Source: Halocafeteria seosinensis (taxonomy: Eukaryota; Sar; Bigyra; Bicosoecida). Taken from it: DNA of 64,000 bases. The notes beneath the pieces are model-generated. The model ran no database searches, had not been told where the DNA came from, and saw only the letters and a list, made by a program, of their open reading frames with translations. Below, piece by piece: positions 52,519 through 58,024 of this stretch (position 1 is its first letter; each line of letters opens with the position of its first letter). The DNA is taken from NCBI GenBank assembly GCA_001687465.1, contig LVLI01000140.1, positions 186,001-250,000 on the forward strand, written 5' to 3'. A program made the position numbers and the translations under genes.

Positions 52519-53469
52519 ATGGCTTACGTTTTCGGTCAGCGAGCACCGAGTAGGACATTGTCGATCGCTGTGCTGTTGGCGGTCGTTTTCGGGTTTGTTA
52601 TCAGAGGAACGGAAGGAATTCACTTCTACATCACGGAAGGCCAGCAACGATGTTTCTTGGAAGATACAGCTGAAGAAACTTTGATTGTAGCCCGCTATGA
52701 AAATCCTGACGTCAAGGAGTGGGGCGAACCAGGGTTTACAGAAACGGTATGAGTGTTTTTCCTCTAGTTGGATTTGGTTTCGTGAAGTAACTTGGAGTGT
52801 GTCTGCAGGGTATCCGCGTGGTTGTGACCAGTCCTTTAGGGAAGTTAGAAATGAGCAGAACCTTGACGAAAGAGGTAAGCAAACTTTATATAGGCGCCGT
52901 CTAGTTGGGTGAGATACACTAGTGTGTTATGTGTAATTCCAGGGTCGCTTTGCTTTCACTACGCATGAAGCAGGTGAGCATAGCATCTGCTTAGGCACAA
53001 ATAACACACGATGGTTTGGAGAACCTCGTCAATTTGTAAGTGGTCATGTAACGGCGCACTTCTCGATTAGATGTATTCTAATTTTCGTTCAATTGAACCG
53101 CAGAAGTTTGAATTGCAACTGGATGTCGGATCGACAGCTATCAACTACGAAGATGTAGCAAAGAAGGAGCATTTATCTACCCTGGCATTAGAAGTGAGAA
53201 AGCTTAACGATAAAGTACAGGACATCATCAAATCGCAATCCTATCAGCAGGTAAGTTATGACTTCCTGTTTTGAATGTTCTATTCCGTCAAGTTACAGTA
53301 AACCGTTCGAACACTACAGGAGCGCGAAATCCAGTTCAGAGACACCAGTGAAAGCACAAATTCCCGTGTCCAGTGGTGGAGCATTGTGCAAACGGCTGTA
53401 TGTGTTGCTTCGGGTGTATGGCAAACTATCCACTTGAAAAACTATTTCCGAAAGAAGAAACTTCAGTGA
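52519..53469 (+). CDS. TMED: p24/TMED family cargo receptor (emp24/gp25L), alpha-like
   Basis: p24 proteins cycle between ER and Golgi in COPII/COPI vesicles and help load GPI-anchored cargo. Five exons: about 52519-52746, 52809-52874, 52943-53035, 53104-53250 and 53320-53469, nearly all phase 0. A signal peptide ([17 protein letters not shown]) is followed by the GOLD domain ([40 protein letters not shown]). A coiled coil comes next ([18 protein letters not shown]), then a C-terminal membrane helix ([19 protein letters not shown]). The tail [12 protein letters not shown] ends in KKLQ, a K-K-x-x COPI retrieval signal. The short YFxxKK-type tail is most like the alpha subfamily (TMED4/9). Confidence 0.92.
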
Positions 53470-53712: not shown

Positions 53713-54168
53713 TCAAAGTCCATAACCCTGTATCAGAGAATCCACATACTGGTAACCGTAGTAGCTTAGTCCTCCAAAAATTCCCATCAACACCGTATCT
53801 GTACAATCAGAAACATACCGGTCGGAGGTGTTTCAAAATCTGCGCCCAATGAAAAGGGGCTTCGTCACTCAGCACTTACTAAAGAGTACTTTCTCCCATC
53901 TATCTAGCATGTACAACCCCGTTGTCAGTTCATATTGGTATGTTCGTCGTCGACACCAGCCAATCGGTCCGCGGTATTTTTCAATTTCTTCTTGGGGGAT
54001 TCCGGCCACGGGGACTTGGGCAGATCTCTGCTGTGGCTGTCGCTGCTGCTGCTGCTGCTGTTGTCGAGCATTTGTTGAGGACTCATGATGCACTTGTTCC
54101 TGAACTATGCTGGAGGTGGTACCGGAATTTGTCTCCTTGCCTCCCGTACGCCGTCGTATCCCCGACAT
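53713..54168 (-). CDS. SPTSS: small activating subunit of serine palmitoyltransferase (ssSPT), with polyglutamine-rich N-terminus
   Basis: ssSPT stimulates the SPT heterodimer, which starts sphingolipid synthesis on the ER membrane. Exon 1 runs from the ATG at 54168 (MSGIRRRTGGKE) to about 53880 and exon 2 from about 53798 to the stop at 53713. The splice joins RTYQYELTTGLYMLDRWEKVLF to NTVLMGIFGGLSYYGYQ. This pairs closely with the family core, including the Y-Q-Y-x-L-x-T-x-L-Y-M-L-x-x-W-E and V-F-N motifs and the first transmembrane helix. The tail after YGYQ is short (YVDSLIQGYGL). The N-terminal ~75 residues are hydrophilic with a CAG-encoded Gln run and are absent in the ~70-residue animal proteins. 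An alternative second splice at about 53720-53740 would give a different tail. Divergent from selenoprotein S. Confidence 0.85.
54042..54063. repeat. CAG/CTG trinucleotide repeat encoding Gln
   Basis: Six to seven CTG units on the plus strand read as CAG on the minus strand and encode the Gln run in the N-terminus of the SPT small subunit. Confidence 0.85.
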
Positions 54169-54449: not shown

Positions 54450-55074
54450 ATGGTGGATGTGCATAGCTCCATCCAGAATGCTCCAGGAGCCATCTGGGGA
54501 TTTCTGGAACAGTATGGCTACTATCTGCTGGCTCTAGTGAGTGGAAATGAGCAGTGAAAAGTGTGGCCACAAAGCTGGTGTATGTGTGTTTGTAGCACAG
54601 GTCGTGCTGGTATGGATGATTAAACCGCATATACAGAGTAAAGTACAAGAGCACCGGCATAAGAAAGCTCTAGAAGAAGCAACAGGTTGGTGGGCGAAGA
54701 AATTTGGTATCCGTAAACCTGGATTAAAAAAAGAAAGAAAGAGTGCACTATTCGCAGACCCTTCACGAGTTCAGGAGCTGGAGGAGGAACGGAGGAAAGT
54801 TAGAGAACGTCAGCAGGAAGAACTAGCGCGGCGTAGCCAAGAAAGAGCCAAAAAGGAAAAGGAGAAGAAATCCGAAGAGAAGAAAAGTGGTGTTAACCAC
54901 TTGAAGCCATCTCCGAGACGTATGTAACGCAATTTACTAGTCGTTCGCGTAGACACTGACAACTACCAAGCATCCCTGTGTGCAGCGGGTGGTAATAGCC
55001 CCCTGAATCCACAAACGCGGCAACCGCACCGATTTGGTCGTATGAGGAATAGACCCTCACGAGGCTGAGGATAA
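54450..55074 (+). CDS. SELENOS: selenoprotein S (VIMP), in-frame UGA read as selenocysteine
   Basis: Selenoprotein S is a single-pass ER protein that links p97/VCP and Derlins in ER-associated degradation. Three exons: 54450-54536, 54601-54919 and 54986-55074. They code for 164 residues if the TGA at 55066-55068 is selenocysteine. The N-terminus leads into a membrane helix (EQYGYYLLALVVLVWMI). A long charged helix follows (ADPSRVQELEEERRKVRERQ...) as in the family. Exon 3 adds a Gly/Arg/Pro tail ending NRPSRG-Sec-Gly-stop, the same G-U-G ending as the animal protein. Without readthrough, translation would stop two codons short. A SECIS fold follows in the 3' UTR and a hairpin lies just after the TGA (listed separately). 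The Sec call rests on three independent features, so it is strong for an unaided reading. Confidence 0.92.
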
Positions 55075-55075
55075 G

Positions 55076-55098
55076 CGACAGGACGAAGAGTCCTGTCG
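55076..55098 (+). promoter_or_regulatory. possible selenocysteine redefinition hairpin, 7 nt after the UGA
   Basis: A perfect 9-bp inverted repeat (CGACAGGAC / GTCCTGTCG) encloses the loop GAAGA. It starts seven bases after the TGA and overlaps the region just past the TAA stop. The spacing and strength resemble selenocysteine redefinition elements that assist UGA recoding near the ribosome, as in SELENON. Function is inferred; the hairpin itself is directly visible. Confidence 0.55.
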
Positions 55099-55135
55099 AA
55101 AAATCGATGTTTACCTTCCGGCATGCCTGCTTTAC

Positions 55136-55203
55136 CATGTCATGACGCAGAGGACTTCAATGCCAAACCCGCAAGGCAAGGTCCTTTGCCGAGAAAGCAC
55201 ATG
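55136..55203 (+). promoter_or_regulatory. form-2 SECIS element in the selenoprotein S 3' UTR
   Basis: The SECIS RNA recruits SBP2 and the Sec-tRNA elongation factor. Helix I is CATGT/ACATG (55136-55140 with 55199-55203). After an internal loop comes the quartet, UGAC (55143-55146, preceded by A) facing CGAG (55190-55193), which gives the expected G.A, A.G pairs. Helix II is 11 bp with two G.T pairs (55147-55157 with 55179-55189). Then an unpaired CAA (55158-55160) supplies the conserved AA 12 bases from the quartet. A 4-bp mini-helix TGCC/GGCA follows with loop AAACCCGCAA. This is the form-2 layout. Pairing was checked by hand. Confidence 0.9.
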
Positions 55204-55298
55204 TCGGGAATGCTTAGAACACCAACACCCTAAAATATAATGTAGGAGTTTATCAAATGCACTGTTGGTGTCAAATCTAGACTTTGTAGGCTCGGTAC

Positions 55299-58024
55299 CT
55301 ACCAGTTCATGAGGTTCTTTGCATCCTTGGTCAATCCATGCTCATTCATAAACTGTATCCACGAAAGCCAATAAGGATCATTTTTCAATGTATTAAAGCT
55401 TCCAATGACGATCATACCCCGTCTAGCACGAGTCATGGCAACATTTAGACGACGGAAATCAGAGAGGAAGCCAACATTGCCTTGATTGTTCGAACGAACA
55501 GCACTGAAAACAATCACGTCCTTCTCTCGCCCCTGGAAGCCATCAACAGATTTTACCTCAATTCCATCCGACATGTCTTCTTCTCCCTCCTCCGAGTAAG
55601 ACTTCATTGTAATACCCATACTTGAGAACACGTTCTGCAAAGCTTTCACTTGTGCTTGATAAGGTGTAACGATACCAAGCTCGTTCATGGAAACAGCGTC
55701 CGGAGCACCGGGCTTTGGATTAAGTAGGGATTTAACGACACTTGAAACAATCTGAACTTCAGCGTCATTGGCTTTGCTCTTTCCTCTACTTTCGTCAAAA
55801 CCTATTGTGACGTCAACGAAGCATATGGGACTCAGCAAGAGCCCGCTGTCGGTCCCCACTAGACCCGAGGCAAATTCCTCGGGTAGCATTGGCCAAGGAA
55901 ACCCCGGGGGAGGGCGTCGATCCTTAATTAAGACCCCGTTATGGATTTTGTTATCATAAAATACCTTCGAGGGCCAAGCTGCTATCAACGGGTGCATTCT
56001 GTATTGAATATCAAGCATGGTGTTGTACGCCGATCGCTTGTCCACAGCTGAATTTTCAGGAGATGATCTGAATAGGTTGATGAGCCGCTCAAATAGTGTA
56101 ATACTGAGTTCTTCTTGTGCCAACGGTGCAAGCACAGTCGGCGGTAGCTGTCGATGGTCACCAATCAAAATAGCTTGCCCTTCTGGTTTGCATCTCATCA
56201 ATGGAACAAGAGACTCTGGCTCTGTGCATTGCGTCGCCTCATCTAGAACTACGAGACCGAAGCAATTGTTGGTCAAAAGGTCACTTCCCGCTCCTGTATC
56301 CCGTAAAAAATTGATCCCATGTTGTTGCAAATCAAGTGCAAGCAATAATGGCACTTACCTATGCAGGTTGCGCATATAACATCTGCAGCCTCAACAATTT
56401 CGTGGCTCACCTTTTCTTCTAGCTGTTTTATCCTTTTGTACCCTTTGCTGAGATTTGCATGTGCCATTCCCTTATCTCTACCTTTGAATGTGTGGATGTT
56501 TTGCGAAATATAGCGCATTTCTTCTTTCAACTGGTCAATTTCGGCAAAATCGGGGTGCTGTTCCATTTGCGCTTCCAGCGTGCAATCGCGTAACTCCGGG
56601 GCGACTTTAACAGGCTGACCAACTCGAACGGCTTTGAGTCCAACACCATCAACTCCTCCCAGAAGCTGATCCACTGCAACGTTCGTTTGAGCTGACACTA
56701 GCACAGGGCCAGCGGTAGGATGCGCCTCCCTCCAATGGTTGATGATTTGCACCGCTGTAGTTGTCTTTCCCTGCAATTGAATCGCACACACGCGCGATTA
56801 GTTTTGGTCGCTGTAACGAAAGTGAGAGCCACACCACACTTACGGTTCCTGGAGGCCCTTGGATTAAAGATATTTGGTGCTGTAAACTATTGGCGACGGC
56901 ATCCTTTTGCGTCGCATTCAAGTGGTTCAAGCTGCTAGCACTTGCAACTTCCCTGCAGTGCTCAGCTGCAACGTGAGAGGAGCCGTCGCTGGTCTCATCA
57001 AAAATCATGTGCGAAGGGCTGCGATTAAGCGATTCGCCACCTTCGGAACTACCAGAGCCCGTCTCCCAAGTTTTGTGGTGCGTTGTGATGAGATTGCGGA
57101 GCCACCGCGGACCATTGTACATGTCCGATGCTATAGTTGTAAGCGCTTTAGACATTCGTTCATACGCTACTTGGTTAGTGCCTTTGTCCACTCGCCATTC
57201 TTGGTCCCGGAGATGGTTGGGTATGTCGTCGACCACAATCTGTAGGAAGGCAGGATACTTACATCCTTAATGAACGTGGACCGAGTAGTTACCCGTCCTC
57301 AGAAGCTTACCTGAATATATTTTCTGGTCTTCATCATTACTACACCTTCGACGTCAACTTGCTTTAGGGACGTGATCCTAAACTTGGAGGATAGTGTTAG
57401 TATGTCTCCATCGGAGAACCTATGATACGGGATGTAACCCTCCGGTCCAAATATTCGAACGACTTGTTTTCCAAAGAACTTCCCATGTTTTTTGGCCGTG
57501 CAATTCAATATAGCATAACCTTCTTGTTGTAATCTCGAAATGGGCCAAGATGATAACCGCTCGTTAACCGCGGCTTCTTCTTCCTCCTTCTCCAGATCAA
57601 GGTACTTCTGGAAGTGGGATTTGTACGGCTGGAACTGGGGGAGAATGGTTGGTTTCGGCTCATCCTCAGTAGCCTTCCTTTTATTTCTACCCCGTTTAGA
57701 GTCTTCATGGTTCCCTCGTTTATTCGGAGTCTGAGTGTTACCGTCTCCGCTAGCATCATCATCTCGGCCCCGTCCTCGTCCTCGACCTCCACGACCACGG
57801 CCACGACCACCTCGGCCACGCCCTCCACCTCTTCCACGATTACCACCTGAATGTCCATCATCCGAAAAGCCACCCTGCCCTCCTCCTCGTCCTCTCCCTC
57901 TCCCTCGTCCTCGTCCGCCGCCTCCTCGATTTCCATTTCGGTTTTCAAAGAATTCAAACCCTTCCCTTCCACCGCCTCTTCCTCCGCGCTGTGCAGCGCT
58001 ATCTAAGAACCCTCTCGCAGACAT
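55299..58024 (-). CDS. IGHMBP2: IGHMBP2/SMUBP2-like superfamily 1 helicase with N-terminal RGG-box region
   Basis: SF1B helicase of the UPF1/SMUBP2 branch, implicated in RNA or DNA unwinding. Four exons: about 58024-57311, 57239-56844, 56770-56359 and 56293-55299, totalling 838 residues. I chose the ATG reading MSARGFLDSA; an upstream in-frame ATG at 58252 adds unlikely sequence. Residues ~15-100 are a Gly/Arg/Asp RGG-type region. The Igbmp2-type N-domain follows (FGKQVVRIFGPEG, PYHRFSDGD). Helicase motifs are complete: I GPPGTGKTTTA (created by splicing), Ia SAQTNVAVDQLL, II VVLDEATQ, III GDHRQLPPT, IV QYRMHP, V VDGFQGREKDV, VI NVAMTRARRG. The RGG region is unusual for the family, where an R3H domain and zinc finger sit at the C-terminus. 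Those are absent here, as in fungal and plant short forms. Confidence 0.85.

Follow-up and report, generated by a model that had tools for sequence, protein, structure and literature searches.

A selenoprotein S (SelS) gene of the bicosoecid Halocafeteria seosinensis with high probability belongs to a selenocysteine (Sec)-using eukaryote and has an in-frame UGA that is read as Sec ahead of a Gly codon and a UAA stop. The gene lies on the forward strand at positions 54450-55074 of the window, that is, the whole 64,000-nt stretch of DNA that was analyzed, from a small assembly (30.6 Mb in 605 contigs) whose introns and decoding genes mark it as eukaryotic. A scripted gene model divides it into exon 1 (54450-54536, start codon context CACCATGG), exon 2 (54601-54919, encoding the end of the membrane helix and then a charged coil) and the coding part of exon 3 (54986-55074, ending in ...RNRPSRG-U-G-stop), separated by two sequence-predicted introns on the same strand (54537-54600, 64 nt, GTGAGT...CACAG; 54920-54985, 66 nt, GTATGT...TGCAG). 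Both introns have GT..AG borders, from which we infer splicing; the joined exons give a coding sequence of 495 nt and a product of 164 residues. Its 3' end reads TGA GGA TAA, base for base as in the initial annotation, with the TGA at 55066-55068, the UAA stop at 55072-55074 and a protein tail of ...NRPSRG-UGA-Gly-UAA. The Sec reading of the UGA is suggested by a SECIS element downstream of it and by the decoding machinery of the genome.

Hydropathy reached its maximum of 1.6 at residues 18-36, indicating one N-terminal membrane helix, followed by a charged coil and a Gly/Pro-rich tail with the terminus G-U-G-stop. The product is a predicted single-pass protein, probably of the ER membrane. 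The same order of parts is found in SelS (SELENOS, VIMP; PF06936) of humans and algae, namely a YGxY motif, then one N-terminal membrane helix, a charged coil and a Gly/Pro/Arg-rich tail ending in G-U-G-stop, with a SECIS in the 3' untranslated region (UTR). SelS binds p97/VCP and Derlin in ERAD, and the segment RKSALFA aligns with human RQEALAA, which we take to be the p97-binding region. The family identity proposed from the DNA alone is supported by the architecture and the G-U-G end. At profile level, PF06936 was the best of seven Pfam matches, yet stayed below threshold (E 0.02, 15.1-15.2 bits, cut-off 29.8), with unrelated coil-rich families scoring close behind. When the protein was aligned to the human sequence, 5 of 500 block shuffles did equally well in global mode and 7 of 500 in local mode. 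We regard the recognition as selenoprotein S as good, despite the sub-threshold Pfam score.

Several features set the gene apart from its human counterpart. The predicted protein is shorter (164 versus 189 residues) and encoded by three exons, compared with six reported for the human major form (PMC3316567). Human SelS has Cys174, for which a bond with Sec188 has been proposed (PMC3628699), whereas the whole 495-nt coding sequence studied here contains no cysteine codon, and hence no equivalent partner or resolving cysteine near the Sec. Sec-containing SelS is already known outside animals: it is recorded in both Ostreococcus species (PMC2375036), and algae are reported to have SelS almost only in its Sec form, although few selenoprotein families are less widespread among them (PMC7539508). 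The present gene is therefore of a familiar kind; its details are convincing. Searches of viral_contigs and genome_contigs returned no relatives.

Downstream of the UGA, the transcript is predicted to fold into a SECIS (55116-55209, + strand) composed of helix I, an internal loop, the quartet UGAC/CGAG (55143-55146 and 55190-55193), an 11-bp helix II (55147-55157 and 55179-55189), unpaired CAA (55158-55160) and a 4-bp mini-helix (55161-55164 and 55175-55178). Eukaryotic SECIS elements have a non-Watson-Crick quartet UGAN/NGAN, a helix II of about 9-13 bp and unpaired AA behind it, all of which are found in this fold. Quartet, helix II and mini-helix agree with the initial annotation, with CAA as the unpaired stretch and the core 74 nt after the UGA; helix I as folded begins 47 nt after it. 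Helix II was stable in context (pair probabilities 0.91-1.0), the mini-helix was weak and helix I had two alternative pairings. A descriptor comprising the UGAN/NGAN quartet, a helix of at least 8 pairs and AA after the helix matched 54 times on both strands of the window, with the SelS element, which has 11 unbroken pairs, ranking top. The same descriptor matched 766 times in 20 dinucleotide shuffles of one strand, two of these matches scoring as high as the SelS SECIS. The Rfam searches were weaker evidence. At gathering score, Rfam had no match across the whole 64-kb window, and on a 1-kb region it returned four chance-level families, SECIS not among them. On 161 nt, SECIS_1 was the sole match, aligned at 55136-55203 with a shorter helix I, though below its cut-off of 35 (16.7 bits, E 0.81).

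The initial annotation had also predicted that the organism keeps the Sec machinery (SBP2, eEFSec, tRNA-Sec, SecS and SPS2), and all five were recovered from the same assembly. The tRNA-Sec scored 80 bits with anticodon TCA, SecS was matched by its profile above cut-off, and eEFSec was detected through the eukaryotic SelB domain III, likewise above cut-off. The SelD profile of selenophosphate synthetase matched in three pieces, below the model cut-off. For SBP2, a search with L7Ae at E 0.001 yielded six matches at five genes resembling ribosomal and snoRNP relatives; a looser E limit added a seventh (19.2 bits, below the Pfam cut-off). The two joined exons of this seventh match (L036/L037; G000:C150, near 174065) had SECIS-binding protein 2 as their single match in the PDB, at E 5e-9. 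They encode a divergent SBP2 L7Ae domain, which standard annotation may miss because its score lies below the Pfam cut-off. The SelS SECIS may support Sec insertion through SBP2, whose domain is encoded in the same genome.

Three further selenoprotein genes were examined. SPS2 (L011; G000:C189:1-6000) carries its Sec TGA at 982, reads ...LKG-U-GCKVPQ and has a SECIS core at 2414, 106 nt after the first base of the stop codon (Rfam SECIS_1 19.3 bits, below cut-off). SelK (L016; G000:C454:9000-13000) was detected above the Pfam cut-off with 25.6 bits and has its TGA at 1674 within the codons TGA GGT TAA G, the protein ending in GGGG-U-G-stop. Its SECIS, with the core at 1908-1952, 231 nt downstream of the UGA, carries TGACGCAG...TTGCCGAG. 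In SelT (L012; G000:C170:49500-54000), a TGA at 1414 falls into the CxxU motif, and this position together with an Rdx match points to Sec; no SECIS was found in about 2.5 kb downstream by the descriptor and the covariance model R1 described below, nor in 0.8 kb by Rfam. A search for Sep15/SelM had no match in the genome and none in the controls either, and is hence uninformative.

The SECIS cores of SelK and SPS2 contain the same UGAC/CGAG quartet as that of SelS, and all three have AUGACG...AA...CCGAG.AA in common around variable helices. A pattern derived from the three cores occurred at 13 sites in the 30.6-Mb genome, compared with three for a reversed control pattern. R1, trained on the SelS, SelK and SPS2 cores, scored these three at 45-53 bits and the other ten pattern sites at no more than 14.4 bits; because of its training on these three, the result is partly circular and shows only that the other ten sites lack the helix. 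Three GPx genes (five matches) served as a negative control: on our reading their active sites lack a TGA, and R1 found no SECIS in them.

Given tRNA-Sec, SecS, eEFSec, the SBP2 domain and the UGA-containing SPS2, SelK and SelT of the genome, decoding of the UGA at 55066 as Sec is very likely. That the UGA is instead a true stop, with a SECIS-like fold and Gly-UAA downstream by coincidence, draws on the sub-threshold Pfam and Rfam scores and on the fact that readthrough gains a single residue, so that coding evidence beyond the UGA is nil. We nevertheless consider a true stop highly improbable, as it would leave to chance a top-scoring SECIS 74 nt downstream, equalled twice in 20 one-strand shuffles of 64 kb, a SECIS core that recurs in two other Sec genes of the genome, the presence of the decoding machinery and a G-U-G terminus that is the one of the SelS family. 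Under Sec decoding, the SECIS would lie within the 3' UTR of the SelS mRNA with its core bound by SBP2, and eEFSec would deliver Sec-tRNA(Sec) to the ribosome, so that UGA 55066 yields Sec before Gly and the UAA stop. In the resulting protein, a coil of charged residues would be accompanied by a flexible tail at the C-terminus, with Sec as the sole redox residue. Failed decoding, in turn, would leave a C-terminus of -RG. Human KLHDC3 is reported to recognize C-termini of the -RG type and can remove truncated SelS (PMC12035522), and by analogy a KLHDC3-like quality control of truncated SelS is conceivable here.

What is less expected in this gene is a UGA-adjacent stem placed like SL1 of human SelS, together with short UGA-SECIS spacing and the lack of a cysteine for a selenosulfide of the human type. 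SelK has a stem at a similar place, and that of SelT is shorter. The 9-bp hairpin, which the initial annotation had described as perfect and set off from the TGA by 7 nt, was recovered base for base at 55076-55098 on the + strand (arms 55076-55084 and 55090-55098, GAAGA loop, -15.7 kcal/mol alone, pair probabilities in context 0.68-1.0). SelS has a stable stem-loop starting within about 6-9 nt after the UGA, as expected of a Sec redefinition element (SRE) or SL1. When we required at least 9 Watson-Crick pairs, a loop of 3-10 nt and a start 3-12 nt behind the TGA, a single TGA triplet out of 2179, counted over the two strands of the window, had such a stem, namely the SelS TGA itself. The 40 nt following it folded with a z of -6.3, and none of 200 shuffles was equally stable. 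Over 60 nt, 39 of the 2179 TGAs (SelS included) were equally or more stable.

In human SelS, SL1 is reported to start 9 nt after the UGA and to promote Sec insertion, its removal from a tagged construct strongly lowering the readthrough signal (PMC3628699). The stem-loop directly behind the UGA begins at 7 nt here, compared with 9 nt in human SelS and 6 nt in SelN according to the same report (PMC3628699). From its position and this human work, a role of the present hairpin as redefinition element is plausible; its most likely function, which we would place just short of an even chance, is to favor Sec insertion over termination in the manner of SL1. With the UGA in the ribosomal A site, the hairpin would lie at the mRNA entry side.

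The other selenoprotein genes bear on this from both sides. SelK folds a 9-pair stem from 7 nt after its UGA in 160-nt and longer folds; this stem closes over about 130 nt enclosing a CT repeat and is absent in the 60-nt fold. The two genes are alike in the G-U-G end, the 7-nt distance to the stem and the SECIS core, but differ in that SelK has its core 231 nt rather than 74 nt after the UGA and a long stem instead of a compact hairpin. A 5-nt match shared by their UTRs is weak, being equalled by 450 of 20,000 random TAA pairs, and the shared run is too short to argue for homology of the tails and UTRs. Spliced SelT forms a 7-pair stem 8 nt behind its UGA and inside the coding region; its 60-nt fold has -22.8 kcal/mol, and 14 of the 2179 window TGAs are equally stable. 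SREs have been reported for many selenoprotein genes, SPS2 among them (PMC4561486), whereas the SPS2 of the present genome showed no UGA-proximal stem in a 160-nt fold of the genomic sequence, an intron probably lying past +63. A UGA-proximal stem is therefore not general in this genome. In the open-licence literature, mostly at listing level, we found no description of such a stem in non-animal SelS or SelK.

A Sec-decoded SelS whose hairpin has no part in recoding, being a chance fold or serving mRNA stability or 3' UTR packing, is a serious contender that we would rate somewhat below even. It is in keeping with the stemless SPS2 and with the background: when one bulge was allowed, with starts 5-12 nt behind the TGA and 160-nt folds, stems of at least 9 pairs followed 116 of 2177 TGAs, and the seven outer pairs of the SelT stem were matched by 361 of 2177; the 39 TGAs of equal or greater stability over 60 nt likewise speak for it. 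This reading is harder to square with the rarity of the perfect 9-bp form (1 of 2179 TGAs), with a 9-pair stem at the identical 7-nt distance in SelK and with the tested positive effect reported for human SL1 at a nearly equal position (PMC3628699). By the looser criterion, two of the four Sec genes had 9 pairs, or three of four had 7, each at p of about 0.015 in a simple binomial with thresholds chosen post hoc.

The hairpin could also act by geometry, folding 23 of the 47 nt between the UGA and helix I and thereby setting the reach of the SECIS complex in an unusually short UTR. UGA-SECIS spacing in mammals is given as 207-5207 nt, with a measured minimum of 51-111 nt in Dio1 (PMC3316567), so that SelS, with 47 nt to helix I and 74 nt to the quartet, would sit near the published minimum, which is less expected. 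In the same direction, SelK has some two thirds of the 231-nt interval ahead of its SECIS core taken up by UGA-proximal structure. We nevertheless deem action by geometry improbable, considering that the SelT stem lies within coding sequence, where the spacing argument does not apply, and that the start position of the SelS SECIS hinges on the correct pairing of helix I.

Taken further, the SL1-like reading of the hairpin leads to a broader proposal, which we put forward as speculative and on the whole rather doubtful. UGA-proximal stem-loops may be an old part of the tail-Sec recoding signal rather than something added in animals. SelS and SelK share a cassette of UGA-Gly-UAA-G-stem-SECIS, and either gene has its stem 7 nt after the UGA; in SelS, some 140 nt hold the complete signal, whose UGA-SECIS spacing is at the lower limit. 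As part of the same proposal, the lone Sec of SelS would have to work with an outside partner, since the protein is cysteine-free. SL1 itself has been described from 32 mammalian and four other SelS sequences (PMC3628699); the present gene contributes a further natural signal for SelS recoding, which is compact and comes from a eukaryote with a small genome. Owing to the short UTR, the perfect stem and the near-minimum spacing, the role of UGA-proximal stems (pausing, blocking termination or setting distance) can be tested here, and the hairpin is the part of the gene worth testing. A cysteine-free SelS is also relevant to the question of whether the function of the family requires the selenosulfide of the human protein.

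Upstream of the SelS gene and divergent from it, a serine palmitoyltransferase small-subunit-like gene with a polyglutamine run lies at 53869-54168 on the - strand (PF11779, 39.7 bits), and the C-terminal exons of a p24/EMP24 family protein occupy 53071-53469 on the + strand (PF01105, 110 bits). On the other side, a Superfamily 1 helicase exon (AAA_11/AAA_12; 55299-56354, - strand) is convergent to the SelS 3' UTR, about 90 bases beyond the SECIS.
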